A stretch of 46,083 bases of DNA, from positions 1 through 46,083 of the forward strand of contig JAAYKC010000076.1 of NCBI GenBank assembly GCA_012522645.1, written 5' to 3'. Under the pieces are notes generated by a model that was not told the origin of the DNA, ran no database searches, and saw nothing but the letters and a program-made list of their open reading frames with translations. Below, in pieces: positions 1 through 33,934 of this stretch (positions are counted from its first letter, which is position 1; every line of letters starts with the position of its first letter). The stretch is from Thermoplasmatales archaeon. GTDB lineage: Archaea > Thermoplasmatota > Thermoplasmata > Methanomassiliicoccales > Methanomethylophilaceae. The position numbers were made by a program, and so were the translations under genes.

Positions 1-1190
1 ACGCTGTTCCCGATGATCAGAGATTCAAGACCTGTACACTCGTAGAACGCTTCTTTGCCTATGGACGTGACGCCGTTCCCGATGGTTACGGAGGCGAGAC
101 TCGTGCAATATGCGAATGCATCGCCCTCTATGGATTTCACACTGTCCGGGATCTCGATGGATGCAAGGAATGCGCACTCCTGGAATGCCCTTTCGCCTAT
201 GGATTCCACGCTGTTCCCGATTATTACGGATGAGAGGTTTGTGCAGCGGAAGAATGTTTCATTCCCTATGGATTCCACGCTGTCCCCGATTATTACGGAT
301 GAGAGGTTTGTGCAGTGATAGAATGCTTTATTGCCTACGGTCTTCACACTGTCCGGGATCTCAACGGATGTCAGGGATGTGCACCTTAAGAATGCCTCAT
401 CCCCTATGGATTTCACGCTGTTCCCGATAATTATGAATGAGAGCTTTGTTCATCCGGAGAACATCTGATTGTCTATGGTTTCTACGCCGTCCCCGATGAT
501 CACGGAAGAGAGATTCGTACAACCATAGAATGCCCCGCCGCCTACGGACTTGACGCCGTCACCGATGATCACGGATGCCAGACTCGTACACTGCGAGAAT
601 GCCCCGCTGCCTATGGATTCTACACTGTCAGGGATATCGATGGATGTCAGGGACGTGCACTCTGAGAATGTTGCATTGAGTATGGAGCCAACACCGTTCT
701 TGATGGTCACGGAAGAGAGATTCGTGCAGCCCATGAAGGTTGCATTGCCTATGGATTCCACGCCGCTGCCTATGGTCACGGAAGAGAGATTCTTGCATTG
801 AGAGAACGCTGTGTTGTCTATGATTTTAACACTGTCCGGGATCTCAACGGATGTCAGGGATGCACATTCCGAGAACGCGCTGCTGCCTATGAATTCCACT
901 CCGTTTCCGAGGGATATGGAGGTCAGGTTCGCACATCGCATGAATGCAGCATTGTCCAGGGATCTCACATTATCGGGGATAATCACAGAAGTGAGGCCTA
1001 TGCAGCAATTGAATGCCCCGCCGCCTATGGATTCCACGCCGCCGCCTATGGATACAGTTGTAAGATTTACACAACAGTTGAATGCCCCGCCGCCTATGGA
1101 CGTGACGCTGTCCGGAATGATCACAGAATTGAGAAATGTTTTGTTTCCGAATGAATTATTGCCTATGGCGACCACTGTTTTTCCGTTGAC
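1..1190 (-). repeat. Tandem 69-nt (23-codon) LRR repeat array
   Basis: Period of 69 nt read directly; about 196-246 and 265-315 are near-identical direct repeats. Confidence 0.85.
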
Positions 1191-1391
1191 CTCCCCCGGG
1201 ATCTCGATATCTGTCAGGGAACCTGTGTATTCGGTAATAGTCGCATCCGTGCCGTCGAATGTGTATAAGAAACCTTCATATTCTCCGCTTCCCAGCGGAT
1301 CCGCTCCGGTGTTCGTATAGTTCGACAGCATCAGAATCGGCAGGACCAGAGCGATCGCCAGGGCGATCATGGCATAGAATCGTTTGTTCAT
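1..1391 (-). pseudogene. BspA-like leucine-rich-repeat (LRR_5 type) secreted/surface protein, interrupted by an in-frame TGA at 450-452; continues beyond the left window edge
   Basis: Signal peptide MNKRFYAMIALAIALVLPILMLSN followed by ~23-aa repeats (F..C.NL.SV.I.D.V.SIG..AF). The same frame stays open from 449 down to 1 and continues the repeat pattern after the TGA. Confidence 0.75.
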
Positions 1392-2853: not shown

Positions 2854-4026
2854 ATGGAACTCAGCAGGGAAGAGCAGGCCATCCTGAACGGTGAATCGGG
2901 GGACGGTCCGCGGAAGGCGATGGAGCTCATCGTCGCTTTGGGCAGGATATACGGGGCGGAGGGTCTCGTGGACATAACATCGGCGCACCTGTCCGGCGCA
3001 TCATACAAGACGATAGGGGACGGAGGACTGCTGTATCTGGAGGATATGGCGGCGGGAGGCTCCATGGTGAAGGTGCCGTCCACACTGAACCCGATAGGTA
3101 TGGACCGCGGGAGATGGAGCGAGATGCACATCTCAGAGGATTTCGCCAAGAAGCAGCTGAGGATCGTGGAGCTCTACGGGAAGATGGGCGTGATGACCAC
3201 CTGCTCATGCACCCCGTATCTCGGTGAGAACGTCCCGAAGTTCGGCGATCACGTATCGTGGGCGGAGTCCTCAGCTCTGTCGATGGTGAACTCCATGATA
3301 GGTGCCAGGACAAACAGGGAAGGAGGTCCCGGGGCCCTTGCCGCAGCGATACTGGGCAAGACCGCGAAATACGGTTATCATCTCGATGAGAACAGGAGGC
3401 CGACCGTGGTCATAGATGCCGATATAGGCGATTCCCTCTTCGAGCACTCCCTTCTGGGTCAGGCCGTGGGGTCCGGGATAGGCGGCGGTGTCCCTTATTT
3501 CAGAGGCATATCCCCGGATATGGATCAGGCGAAGACCATGGCGGGAGCCATGGCCGCATCCGGGGCGGTGGCGATGTTCCATGTGGAAGGCGTCACGCCC
3601 GAGGCGAAGGACCAGGACATCTCCGGTCTGGATGTCATAACGATAGGGGATGCGGAGATAAAGGAGGCCGCGGACCGGCTCAATACCGCGGAGGAGGTGC
3701 AGCTGATAGCCCTCGGATGCCCCCATCTGTCGGAGAGGGAGATGAAGGAGATAGCCGGCCTGCTCAAGGGGAAGAAGAAGAGAGGGGATGCGGAGATATG
3801 GTTCTGCACCTCGGAATCAGTAAGAGCCAGATGCCCGGATGAGGTCAGGATAATGGAAGGATTCGGCCCCGTTCTTGCGGATACGTGCATGGTGGTCTCG
3901 CCCATAGAGGGCACCTTCGGGAGGACAGGCACGAACTCGTGCAAGGCCGGGAACTACCTGCCGACCCTGTGCTCGCAGAAGGTCATGTGCAGGGACATCG
4001 CGGATCTTCTGAGGGTGATATCATGA
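2854..4026 (+). CDS. Aconitase X / phosphomevalonate dehydratase large subunit (DUF521)
   Basis: Family-like sequence including DITSAHLSGASYKTIGDGGLLYLEDMA and CSCTPYL.GENVPKFGDHVSWAESSA; ATGA overlap with the small-subunit gene. Confidence 0.9.
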   Translation: MELSREEQAILNGESGDGPRKAMELIVALGRIYGAEGLVDITSAHLSGASYKTIGDGGLLYLEDMAAGGSMVKVPSTLNPIGMDRGRWSEMHISEDFAKKQLRIVELYGKMGVMTTCSCTPYLGENVPKFGDHVSWAESSALSMVNSMIGARTNREGGPGALAAAILGKTAKYGYHLDENRRPTVVIDADIGDSLFEHSLLGQAVGSGIGGGVPYFRGISPDMDQAKTMAGAMAASGAVAMFHVEGVTPEAKDQDISGLDVITIGDAEIKEAADRLNTAEEVQLIALGCPHLSEREMKEIAGLLKGKKKRGDAEIWFCTSESVRARCPDEVRIMEGFGPVLADTCMVVSPIEGTFGRTGTNSCKAGNYLPTLCSQKVMCRDIADLLRVIS

Positions 4027-4805
4027 TGATACAGGGAAGGCCGATCTCCCCCGGCAGGGCGGAAGGCGAGGTCCTCGTGATAGATGACGCATTCAGCTTC
4101 CTGGGGGGAGTGGACGCATCCACGGGCGAGCTGAAGGTCAGCCCCGGCGGCAACGTAGCGGGGAAGGTGCTCGTATTCCCGAGCGGCAAAGGAAGCACCG
4201 TAGGGTCCTTCGTGATGTACGATCTCAAGGTCCACGGGAAGGCTCCCGCTGCCGTGATCAATGCGTCTGCGGAGACGATAGTGACCACGGGCGCCGTGAT
4301 CTCATCCATCCCCATGATCGATAAAGTGGATGTGTCACTATTCAGGACAGGTGACACCGTGAAGGTGGATGCCGACAACGGGACGGCGGAAATAGAGAAC
4401 GTAACGGTAACGGATTCCGTTTCGTCCGTGATCCTGATAGACGGCAGGATCCTGATGCTCAGGCGCCCGGACGGTGCGCGCTCGTACCCCGGCAGATGGT
4501 CCTTGTGCGCAGGCAAGGTCGAGGAAGGGGAGGACCCGGAGACCGCTGCGGTCAGGGAGATCATGGAGGAGACCGGCATAGAGGCGGGCAAACCGCTGGG
4601 GAGGATAGATCCGATACTCGTCAGGGAGAAGAGCACCGTATGGAGGGTGAGCCCGTTCATATTCAGGGCGGACGGGGAGGTCCCGTCCCTGAACTCGGAG
4701 AACACAGCATACAGGCTCTGCTCACCCGATGAGGTGATCTCCTGCGACAGGCTGGTGGAGCGCACCCCTGAGGCCGTGAAGGCCCTTCTGGACCTCACAC
4801 GCTGA
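4023..4805 (+). CDS. Phosphomevalonate dehydratase small subunit (DUF126) fused to a C-terminal Nudix hydrolase domain
   Basis: DUF126-like N-terminus (GRPISPGRAEGEVLV...GKGSTVGSFVMYDL) followed in one ORF by a complete Nudix box GKVEEGEDPETAAVREIMEETGI. Confidence 0.85.
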   Translation: MMIQGRPISPGRAEGEVLVIDDAFSFLGGVDASTGELKVSPGGNVAGKVLVFPSGKGSTVGSFVMYDLKVHGKAPAAVINASAETIVTTGAVISSIPMIDKVDVSLFRTGDTVKVDADNGTAEIENVTVTDSVSSVILIDGRILMLRRPDGARSYPGRWSLCAGKVEEGEDPETAAVREIMEETGIEAGKPLGRIDPILVREKSTVWRVSPFIFRADGEVPSLNSENTAYRLCSPDEVISCDRLVERTPEAVKALLDLTR

Positions 4806-28992: not shown

Positions 28993-29556
28993 ATGAATAA
29001 TTCCGAAGAAAGCAATATGATCAAAGTACCAGAAAAGAGGATTTTCGTGATAACCAATGACTCCACGGTGTTCCAGACGGACAAGTGGGTCAGTGCCTTC
29101 GAGATGTTCGGCGGCCGCGTGACAGAGGTCAAGAACCTTGTCACGGATCTCTGCGGCGAAGCGGACGTATCCATGGGGATAATCTCAGGCCGATTCGGAT
29201 TCATACCTGCCAATTACGTCGTAATGCCGTACCCGTGGGTTCCCGAGTCCAAAGAGGACTTCGAGCTCCTGCAGTCCAAGAGGGATTTCCTGGGCGCGAT
29301 CAAGAAGACGCTGGGGATAAAGGTGGGCGACACCTATCTCTACGACAAGGTGATAGTCTGCGTTCCGAAGGTCCTGTTCGAGATGATGAAGGACGTTCTG
29401 CCTGATGACAGGGTCATAGCGATCACGAACCCCCAGTTCGAGGAGGAGTGCAGAAACCGGGGATGGTCGTATTACAAGCGCGGCGGTTCCAGGGTGGGCA
29501 AGAAGAACGCCGCGGACATAATCAAGGAGATCGAAGGCTGGAACGCAGGAGCCTGA
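28993..29556 (+). CDS. Conserved-looking protein of unknown function linked to hypA-hypD (DUF6884/YaaA-like appearance, weak)
   Basis: 187 aa; IISGRFGFIPANYVVMPYPWVPESKEDF; directly follows hypD. Confidence 0.55.
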   Translation: MNNSEESNMIKVPEKRIFVITNDSTVFQTDKWVSAFEMFGGRVTEVKNLVTDLCGEADVSMGIISGRFGFIPANYVVMPYPWVPESKEDFELLQSKRDFLGAIKKTLGIKVGDTYLYDKVIVCVPKVLFEMMKDVLPDDRVIAITNPQFEEECRNRGWSYYKRGGSRVGKKNAADIIKEIEGWNAGA

Positions 29557-30270: not shown

Positions 30271-31182
30271 GTGATACTGAGCGCCAGCAGGAGGACCGAC
30301 ATCCCGGCATTCCATTCGGAATGGATGATGAACCGTCTCAGGGACGGCAGGCTGATGGTCCGTAACCCGGGTTTCAGGAGCATGGTCTATGACGTTGACG
30401 TGAGCCCCGGGAATGTGGATGCCGTCATCTTCCTGACGAAGAACCCATCCCCTATGACGGGGATGATCGATGAGATACTGTCCATGGGGCACCGTCCGTT
30501 CTTCCAGGTGACGATAACCGGTAACGGCAGGGGGATCGAACCGAATGTGCCGGACATCAGGAAGACAACGGACGCGTTCAGACGGATATCCGGGAAGATA
30601 GGCCCCGACAGGATGATATGGAGATACGATCCGGTGCTGCTGTCCGCGGGGATCGGAGCGGAGGAGCACGCTGAAAGGTTCTCGGAGATATGCTCGCTCC
30701 TGGAAGGTCATACGGGAAGGTGCGTATTCGGGTTCCTGGAACCTCATGCCAAACTGAGTGCCAAGATCGCATCCGGTGCGCTTCGGGAAGCATCAGGGGA
30801 GGAGATGAGAGCGGTCGCCGAGGCCCTGCTGCCGATAGCCGAGTCTGCCGGCATGGAGCTCACGTCCTGCTGCACCGGGACAGCTCTGGAGGGCACCGGG
30901 GTGAAGGATGTCGGGTGCATAGATGAGGACACCATGCGCCGTTCCGGCATACCGTTCACCAGATACTCAGTGCCACAGAGGGAAGGATGCACCTGCGTAA
31001 AGACATTCGATGTCGGGACGTACGGCACCTGTTTCCACGACTGCATATATTGTTACGCCAACCCAGCTTCGCCGGGCAGGAGGACCTCGGACCCGGACAG
31101 CCTGATGCTGGGGGACTCCCTCAGAGAAGGGGACGAGATAATCAAGGTGGGGAAGAGGCAGAGGCTTCTAAGCGACTTCTGA
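30271..31182 (+). CDS. DUF1848 family protein with C-terminal Cys cluster
   Basis: MILSASRRTDIPAFHSEWMMNRL; CFHDCIYCYAN. Confidence 0.85.
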   Translation: MILSASRRTDIPAFHSEWMMNRLRDGRLMVRNPGFRSMVYDVDVSPGNVDAVIFLTKNPSPMTGMIDEILSMGHRPFFQVTITGNGRGIEPNVPDIRKTTDAFRRISGKIGPDRMIWRYDPVLLSAGIGAEEHAERFSEICSLLEGHTGRCVFGFLEPHAKLSAKIASGALREASGEEMRAVAEALLPIAESAGMELTSCCTGTALEGTGVKDVGCIDEDTMRRSGIPFTRYSVPQREGCTCVKTFDVGTYGTCFHDCIYCYANPASPGRRTSDPDSLMLGDSLREGDEIIKVGKRQRLLSDF

Positions 31183-32145
31183 CCCGCGGCCCTCTTTTTC
31201 GAGCTCCCTCTTCATGCGCTTGGGCGAGAAAAGATAGCCGTCCATGAATATGACCCAGCATATCTCTATGACGATGGATGCCGTCACGGGGAACAATGCC
31301 CTCCCCGGGTCCAGGGCCGCAGTGACCGCCACGGCCGTCACGAGAGCTATGGCGATGCCCTTGTTCTTGTAGGACGTCATCAGAACATCCGTCACCCTCT
31401 GCTCCCAGGGCACTCCCGCCCTTCTCTCCAGGAACTCCAGGCTGAGACCCAGTCCGAACGTTCTGAGCATGGATATCCCCATGAAGGTCACCAGCAGCAC
31501 CACCTCGCTCCTGAACATATTCGCAGAGGCTCCCACGGAGATGAAGACCAGCAGGAATATGCAGGAATTCAGGAATATCGCAAGATTCTGCTTATCTATC
31601 TCGACTTTGACAAGAAGGCGGGAAAGGAACAGGGGTATGATGACGACTTCGACGACAGCTATGATCACGCCGGTGACGTCAATGATCTTGTCCAGCATGA
31701 GCCAGACCATGAAAGGGATGTAGATTATGGAAAGCAGGTAAACTGCGATCGTCCCTCTGGCGGCGTGCTTCATATCTCCCCTGAGTATGTATGACAGAGG
31801 CACCACGGACGCTGCGAAGGGAGTCAGGCCTATGAACACAAGACCGACCTTGAAAGCCTCATCCGTGAAGAAAAGGGATGCTATCAGAGGTATCGCCGAT
31901 GCGATCACCATGCTGAGCAGGATCGCTCTCAGGACGGATTTCGGGTTCTCTGCAGGATTCAGCCCTTTGAAAGGTATCCTGGAAAGGGACACGGTCATCA
32001 TGATCGCCAGGATGAGGATCGTGACATTGCTTCTGATCTCAGGCGCTATCTCAGGGAAATATCCGCTGAGCCCCAAGGCCAGGGCCACGATAAGGGCCAT
32101 GGACATCATGAAGGTCCCCCTGCTCAGCAGATCCTTAACAGACAT
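31168..32145 (-). CDS. Bile acid:sodium symporter (BASS)-like transporter
   Basis: 325 aa, about 9-10 TM segments; FIGLTPFAASVVPLSYILRGD; TAG stop. Confidence 0.65.
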   Translation of the reverse strand: MSVKDLLSRGTFMMSMALIVALALGLSGYFPEIAPEIRSNVTILILAIMMTVSLSRIPFKGLNPAENPKSVLRAILLSMVIASAIPLIASLFFTDEAFKVGLVFIGLTPFAASVVPLSYILRGDMKHAARGTIAVYLLSIIYIPFMVWLMLDKIIDVTGVIIAVVEVVIIPLFLSRLLVKVEIDKQNLAIFLNSCIFLLVFISVGASANMFRSEVVLLVTFMGISMLRTFGLGLSLEFLERRAGVPWEQRVTDVLMTSYKNKGIAIALVTAVAVTAALDPGRALFPVTASIVIEICWVIFMDGYLFSPKRMKRELEKEGRGSEVA

Positions 32146-32258
32146 AAGGCCCCGACAGGTGATTATCGTTATATACTCTCTCCATACCGCAGAATTGCAC
32201 AGTACGCGGCCCCCGTCAACATAGGAATATTAACGAAAGGTTGCCTACGGTATCAGTC

Positions 32259-33170
32259 ATGATGGAGGTAAAGCCCGTAAAAGCGGGATGGTATAATGCA
32301 TTCAGGCCCTGGACCCTGCACGGAGCGGTCGTGCCCGTGCTCATCGGCGGTGCGGTTGCGTACCGCCACATGCCGGATTCCTTCAGCCCCATTATATTCA
32401 TCCTGATACTGGTCGGGGGCTGTCTCCTCCAATCCGCGGCGAATCTTCTCAACACCTACGGCGATTTCGAGAAAGGGGTCGATACGGAGGAGAATCACAC
32501 AAGGTCCCCGGAGCTCGTCTCGGGCGCTCTGAATCCGAGGAGCGTCCTGTACATGGGAATAGGCTGCCTGGCCGTCACTGCCCTGATAGGCGTGGTGTTC
32601 ATACGGTATTCCGGATGGGAGATACTCCTGATAGGGCTGGCGGGCATAGCCGCCGCCGGATCCTACACCCTGGGAATGGCCTATAAGTACAGAGGGCTGG
32701 GGCAGATCTCCGTCTTCGTGATGATGGGCCTCCTGATGCCGTTGGGAACGTATTTCGTCCTGACGTCCCAATTCCTGATAGACCCGGTGATAGTGGGCCT
32801 CCCCAACGCATTCTTCATAACCGCGGTCCTCTGCGGCAATGAGATGCGGGATTTCAGGACGGATCTGGAAGCAGGCATCGGGACGCTGTGCGGCAGGATG
32901 GGCTACGGCAGAGGCCTCAGATTATACTGGGCGGAGAACACGCTGCCCTATCTGATCCTGGTGCTTATAGTGGTATCAGGATACGCTCCGTGGACATCCC
33001 TCATAGCCCTGGCCTCTCTGGGACTATGGTATAAGCTGATCATGAACAGCAGGAAGGCGGATGAGGACAGGCATGCGGCGTTCCTGATGGTGCCTGCGGC
33101 ATTCAAGCTGAATTGGATCTTCGGCGTCCTTCTGACCGCAGGATATTTGATTGGGATCATCTTCCTGTAG
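32259..33170 (+). CDS. MenA/UbiA-type prenyltransferase
   Basis: FRPWTLHGAVVPVLIGGAVA, SAANLLNTYGDFEKGVDT, CGNEMRDFRTDLEAGIGTL; TAG stop. Confidence 0.88.
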   Translation: MMEVKPVKAGWYNAFRPWTLHGAVVPVLIGGAVAYRHMPDSFSPIIFILILVGGCLLQSAANLLNTYGDFEKGVDTEENHTRSPELVSGALNPRSVLYMGIGCLAVTALIGVVFIRYSGWEILLIGLAGIAAAGSYTLGMAYKYRGLGQISVFVMMGLLMPLGTYFVLTSQFLIDPVIVGLPNAFFITAVLCGNEMRDFRTDLEAGIGTLCGRMGYGRGLRLYWAENTLPYLILVLIVVSGYAPWTSLIALASLGLWYKLIMNSRKADEDRHAAFLMVPAAFKLNWIFGVLLTAGYLIGIIFL

Positions 33171-33179
33171 GTGCTGATA

Positions 33180-33934
33180 TGAAAGGAGACGAGAAGGCCG
33201 GCAATCAATTCGAGGGGAAGGAAGTCTACGTGAAGGATGTCTTCAACGACATAGCCCCGTACTACGACAAGATGAACGACATCATGTCCGTGGGCATGAT
33301 CGAGCGCTGGCACAAGTTCATGTTCAAGAAAGCAGGCGACATCACAGGCTTCTCGGTCCTGGACGTCGGCACCGGCACCGGGGAGCTCGCGTTCATGTCA
33401 GCGAAGAAGGCGGGCCCGGAGGGCAGGGTGACCGGACTTGACATCACCCCGGCGATGCTGGAGATGGCCAAGCTGAAGGTCCCGGACCTGGACCTTCCTG
33501 CGGAAGTGACTTTTGTTGTGGGAGATGCCCTCGACATGGAGTTCGGGGATGACCTTTTCGACCTCGTGATTTCAGGGTACATGCTCAGGAACGTGACCGA
33601 CATCCAGACGGCGGTGGATGAGATGTACCGTGTCCTCAAACCGGGGTGCCTGGCCGTGGTGGCCGAGCTGGCGAAGCCCCGGAACAGGGTCGTACGCTGG
33701 GGACATAAGGTGTACATGAACCGCATCGTGCCCTTCTGGGGCAGGAAATATGACAAGGGGAAGGTCATAGACGGCAAACAGCCCGCATATGACTGGCTGA
33801 CATCATCGCTGGAAGGATTCCCCTACGGTCAGGAGATGATCGACATATTCGAGAAGGCCGGCTTCACGGATGCGGAATTCTATGTCAAGTCCATGGGAGC
33901 CGTCAACATATACGTGGCCCGCAAGCCTCAGTGA
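33180..33934 (+). CDS. UbiE/MenG-type C-methyltransferase
   Basis: VKDVFNDIAPYYDKMNDIMSVGMIERWHKF; VLDVGTGTGELAF; directly follows the prenyltransferase. Confidence 0.88.

Follow-up and report, generated by a model that had tools for sequence, protein, structure and literature searches.

The window, the whole 46,083-nucleotide stretch of DNA that was analysed, contains a gene for a MenA-type prenyltransferase followed by a gene for a UbiE/MenG-type methyltransferase, and a gene for a membrane transporter that points away from them. The features of the locus are:

31168–32145, minus strand: membrane transporter of the BASS/SBF family, 325 aa, divergent from menA (PF01758, 30.2 bits, gathering cut-off 24.3; also fold, co-occurrence and adjacency)
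32146–32258, no strand: 113-bp spacer separating the divergent genes of the transporter and MenA, with probable promoters in both directions, as judged from the layout
32259–33170, plus strand: menA, MenA-type prenyltransferase of the UbiA superfamily, 303 aa (TIGR00751 above cut-off; PF01040, 120 bits)
32442–32483, plus strand: first active-site motif of MenA, NLLNTYGDFEKGVD, residues 62–75, with N62, D69 and D75 invariant
32838–32864, plus strand: second active-site motif of MenA, NEMRDFRTD, residues 194–202, with N194, D198 and D202 invariant; the motif is also present in UBIAD1
33179–33934, plus strand: menG, UbiE/MenG-type SAM-dependent C-methyltransferase, 251 aa (TIGR01934, 193.8 bits, cut-off 158.35; PF01209, 187 bits)
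33356–33382, plus strand: SAM-binding motif of MenG, VLDVGTGTG, residues 60–68, with D62, G66, T67 and G68 invariant, E. coli UbiE included

The ATG start of menA agrees in position with the starts of its homologues. The protein scores 104.7 bits against the menA model TIGR00751, narrowly above the cut-off of 102.15, and its highest scores are to MenA models of the PRK06080 type, the specific equivalog cut-offs of which it misses. The best NCBIfam match, NF004751, reaches 163.3 bits and is below the cut-off of 264 bits, whereas models of DGGGP synthase, heme O synthase and 4-hydroxybenzoate enzymes give merely 21–25 bits. MenA is distant from the characterised MenAs, with identities of roughly 25–36%. 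The invariance of the motif residues was established from alignments A1 and A4, which included E. coli MenA. The match to PF01040, the invariant residues of both Asp-rich motifs, and the fold match to UBIAD1 identify MenA as a protein with the UbiA fold. The substrate of UBIAD1, the human MK-4 synthase, is menadiol. UBIAD1 is the solved structure nearest to MenA by sequence (PDB 8djk; E 1.1e-25, 25% identity) and also by fold (TM 0.76/0.81 to the predicted MenA structure, E 1.7e-10), and the motifs NxxxTYxDF..G.D and NxxRD..xD are common to both proteins.

In a tree of 30 sequences, the MenA proteins of the family form their own clade with a support of 100/99 and a long stem. The clade is located on the MenA side of a split, supported at 92/93, from DGGGPS, UbiA and CyoE. 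Judged by this tree, MenA is a separate clade apart from the ether-lipid and heme enzymes. The source genome (G000) encodes two UbiA-family proteins, MenA and a protein that scores as DGGGP synthase; the latter adjoins the GGGP synthase on contig C103, and a role of MenA as the ether-lipid enzyme was ruled out. A genome from another family of the order (G058) encodes a MenA (L074:8133-9083) that reaches 342 bits against the specific equivalog cut-off of 264 and groups with the MenA of Arthrobacter; its MenG is encoded on a different contig.

MenG scores 207.9 bits against the specific equivalog NF001244, slightly below the cut-off of 216, and its signature LRNVxD is conserved. The two genes are both on the plus strand, separated by 8 bp, and in all 44 genome-contig loci in which both were seen they share a strand, with gaps of 4–97 nt. 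Of the 37 family genomes searched, the same 28 contain orthologues of MenA and of MenG, with identities of about 50% or higher. Because the two co-occur and stay co-oriented, the pair is not a product of chance. The long open reading frames that resembled MenA–MenG fusions in two genomes (G050 and G059) were rejected, since they are out-of-frame extensions of MenG. As far as sequence can tell, prenylation by MenA and methylation by MenG are well supported as the chemistry of the pair. The original prediction had described two adjacent, co-oriented genes for a MenA-type prenyltransferase and a UbiE/MenG-type methyltransferase, and had named a grouping of the former with ether-lipid or heme enzymes as a result that would overturn it. 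The genes lie where it placed them and carry intact catalytic motifs, the family matches agree with both names, and the tree puts MenA on the other side of the split. Its statement that the window holds no other menaquinone genes also stands, although it overlooked the functionally linked transporter gene.

The source genome has a size of 1.34 Mb, is 92% complete, and is nearest to those of RumEn M2 and UBA381, which are from the same genus. The host is a methanogen of the family Methanomethylophilaceae, order Methanomassiliicoccales, in the genus of RumEn M2, in agreement with the earlier guess of a Methanomassiliicoccales-like organism. The survey comprised 61 genomes, the source genome and 60 relatives, and the pair was searched for in the 37 that belong to the family. 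The window also encodes the large subunit of aconitase X, followed by the swivel subunit, which carries a fused NUDIX domain (positions 2854–4805, plus strand; PF04412, and PF01989 with PF00293). AcnX is part of the archaeal isoprenoid (phosphomevalonate dehydratase) pathway, and therefore UbiD/UbiX-type genes in archaea with AcnX need not mean quinone synthesis.

The same gene pair was reported by Borrel et al. in 2014 (PMC4153887) from three Methanomassiliicoccales genomes, where ubiA/ubiE were assigned to 'liposoluble electron transporter synthesis'. There, the annotations read DHNA octaprenyltransferase and heptaprenyl-naphthoquinone methyltransferase, and in two of the three genomes the protein accessions are adjacent. 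The pair was treated as part of the Fpo chain, the head group was left undefined, and the carrier was drawn as 'X'. The original prediction saw the pair as a candidate for making the carrier that links the Fpo-like to the Hdr complexes, and this is therefore an already published hypothesis. It agrees with the normal reduction of a membrane carrier by complex I relatives and with the presence of the pair in 28 of 37 family genomes, but the distribution of the pair weakens it. Nine of the 37 family genomes do not have a pair of this type. One of them (G013, 99% complete, from an otherwise positive genus) represents an assembly gap rather than a loss of the genes, because its contig C6 stops just past the neighbouring HypD gene, at the very place where the three genes would be expected to start. 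The other eight belong to four genera (g7, g8, g9 and g14), and all of them keep FpoH, with scores above 330 bits. An HdrD-type protein was found in 61 of 61 genomes, so the pair is not required for having an Fpo-like complex together with HdrD.

The objection is softened by two genomes of genus g14, which have another divergent MenA-like protein but no MenG (L087:7708-8619, L086:175-1272); in one of them (G015), the gene adjoins those of an ABC transporter ATPase and a substrate-binding protein. The absences may also reflect few evolutionary events, and the argument from distribution against an obligate link between Fpo and Hdr is strong but not conclusive. The search suggested earlier for fpo and hdrDE was borne out for FpoH, in the eight genomes without the pair, and for HdrD, but not for HdrE: the HdrE/NarI profile (PF02665) has no match in any of the 61 genomes, whereas the Methanosarcina acetivorans control was positive. 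The cytochrome b subunit of the HdrE/NarI type that marks the methanophenazine-type chain of Methanosarcinales is thus missing from all the genomes surveyed. Methanophenazine is probably absent from ISO4-H5 (PMC5011839), and later papers assume a direct coupling of Fpo to HdrD (PMC7374477, PMC10804542). We consider it improbable that the pair makes an obligate carrier that joins the Fpo-like complex to HdrD, and argue that it is accessory to, rather than the core of, Fpo/HdrD energy conservation.

The early steps of quinone synthesis were searched for with profiles of MenD (TIGR00173) and MqnA/MqnD (PF02621). Neither profile had a match above the cut-off in any of the 61 genomes, whereas the control genomes were positive. 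The complete menaquinone pathway that would have made the pair ordinary in the original prediction was not found with these profiles. MenD-like matches in most genomes were rejected, because they reach at most 86.8 bits against a cut-off of 244 and are consistent with other ThDP enzymes. The presence of MenA and MenG together with the absence of MenD and MqnA/MqnD constitutes a late-step-only pattern. It is possible that an endogenous head group, phenazine-, benzoquinone- or naphthoquinone-like, is made by an unrecognised pathway and finished by MenA and MenG, with the transporter unrelated or only indirectly involved. The long stem of the MenA clade would fit a different acceptor, and the methanophenazine pathway, which has not been identified, is expected to include UbiA/UbiE-like enzymes (PMC6315138). 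However, no candidate head-group genes were recognised among the conserved neighbours of the pair, the catalytic motifs are those of MenA and UBIAD1, and the co-occurrence of the transporter would be left without an explanation. We regard such an endogenous head group as unlikely.

Similar late pathways are known from the gut bacteria Lactobacillus and Prevotella, in which the late steps are present and the early ones missing, and the uptake of soluble DHNA from neighbours was proposed for them (PMC4746308, PMC5738691), as it is here. According to Fenn et al. (PMC5738691), menA plus ubiE are enough to convert secreted DHNA to menaquinone, bacteria that have MenA and UbiE only are thought to use it in this way, and DHNA transporters 'have not been described'. 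Ravcheev and Thiele (PMC4746308) proposed an exchange of precursors among organisms with incomplete pathways, and pointed out that precursor transporters need to be predicted in support of such exchange. Unlike the Lactobacillus and Prevotella cases, the locus described here is from an archaeal methanogen, its MenA belongs to a clade of its own, and a candidate transporter is genetically linked to the pair.

The structure of the transporter was predicted with a mean pLDDT of 89, and its top fold matches are to ASBT_NM with TM-scores of 0.71–0.78. Glu260 and Gln264 of ASBT_NM, which we take to be Na+-coupling residues, correspond to Met and Lys in the transporter, and therefore its ion coupling probably differs from that of ASBT_NM. 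The transporter shares the predicted fold with the BASS family and ASBT_NM (PDB: 3zuy, 8oyf, 8oyg) at a sequence identity of about 18%. Among the 28 family genomes that encode MenA, 26 also have an orthologue of the transporter, and all nine of the remaining family genomes lack it. The two MenA-bearing genomes without it (G025 and G034) have a completeness of about 79%.

A scan of contigs from named genomes identified 60 archaeal and six betaproteobacterial loci with the transporter. menA is nearby in 49 of the archaeal loci, within 1 kb in 47, and the two genes are divergent in 44 loci and co-directional in five. The co-directional loci read transporter–menA–menG and probably represent one operon. 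Among the 11 archaeal loci without menA nearby, three end at a contig edge on the menA side and eight are solitary. In two g4 genomes (G005 and G017), the transporter is kept even though it is 28–100 kb away from menA, and a genome from another family of the order (G041) has a 55% identical transporter as well as its own, unlinked MenA–MenG pair. These observations suggest that the transporter belongs functionally with the pair.

The region is broadly syntenic among the relatives (HypA, HypD, DUF1848), and this general conservation of gene order inflates the signal from the adjacency of the transporter gene and menA. The link could be mere conserved gene order if the pair prenylated and methylated a non-quinone aromatic, and so provided an antioxidant or membrane-modifying lipid. 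Quinones are not known from methanogens outside Methanosarcinales, and a quinol-oxidising enzyme was not identified with the PF02665 profile in the survey, both of which fit such a product. Against it, the combination of MenA with MenG is typical of naphthoquinone synthesis, and the three genes stay together in two orientations and in seven loci in which a stretch of at least 5.5 kb showed none of the usual upstream genes (DUF1848, HypD, HypA, EndoIII). A non-quinone product is, in our judgement, improbable.

We propose that the transporter, MenA and MenG form a salvage module for quinone head groups, the lipid product of which is accessory to the Fpo-like/HdrD chain, and hold this reading with a confidence that falls a little short of even. 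It draws on features read from the sequences, namely the enzyme families and their motifs, the placement of MenA, the absence of mqn and menD, and the co-occurrence, adjacency and fold of the transporter. What the transporter carries and in which direction, which lipid results and which enzymes act on this lipid are inferred. The BASS-fold transporter would import a soluble aromatic carboxylate that neighbouring microbes produce, with 1,4-dihydroxy-2-naphthoate (DHNA) or its 6-isomer as the most likely candidate. MenA would then exchange the ring carboxylate for a polyprenyl chain, in a prenylation coupled to decarboxylation, and MenG would C-methylate the ring to give a menaquinone-like lipid. 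The lipid may serve as an accessory carrier over the Fpo-like/HdrD chain rather than as an obligate link.

Salvage is supported by the fold of ASBT_NM, which is that of a carboxylate transporter. It is weakened by the replacement of the ASBT sodium ligands by Met and Lys, by the distance of MenA from characterised MenAs and its scores below the specific equivalog cut-offs, by the inflation of the adjacency signal through regional synteny, and by the few evolutionary events from which the absences may stem. The transporter also occurs without MenA, in the eight solitary archaeal loci and on the six betaproteobacterial contigs, which likewise speaks against salvage. One locus (L219) is from the sediment metagenome 'CSSed10', so the trait is not confined to the gut, which weakens salvage and favours an endogenous head group. 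The more specific claim, that the protein encoded at 31168–32145 imports a DHNA-like precursor and that Methanomethylophilaceae are quinone-precursor auxotrophs building menaquinone on a bacterial head group, we consider possible, though on balance rather doubtful.

If the claim is true, it would add a true quinone to the methyl-reducing methanogens and provide a candidate for DHNA transport, a function for which no transporter had been described (PMC5738691). It would also show that rumen and gut methanogens depend for a nutrient on organisms of another kingdom, the bacteria, with a bearing on culturing these methanogens and on limiting their methane output. The linked transporter gene makes the question of the carrier concretely testable. 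New in comparison with PMC4153887 are the link to the transporter, the absence of menD and mqn across 61 genomes, the patchy distribution of the pair, the MenA tree, and the persistence of Fpo and HdrD in genomes without the pair.

The betaproteobacterial transporters are from termite-gut members of Zoogloeaceae and Azoarcus (L243, L248–L250, L253, L255), belong to the same subfamily, and are 39–43% identical to the transporter of the window. No MenA is encoded alongside them, and by inspection no quinone genes were found among their neighbours. Their similarity suggests gene exchange between termite-gut betaproteobacteria and gut methanogens. A 187-aa protein encoded at positions 28993–29556 of the window, plus strand, has no Pfam or PHROG match and follows HypA–HypD in about 15 related loci; it is possibly tied to hydrogenase maturation or is an unrelated conserved protein. 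At positions 450–1391, minus strand, the window encodes a BspA-type leucine-rich-repeat protein (LRR_5, 229 bits), which is likely to be a surface or adhesin-like protein.
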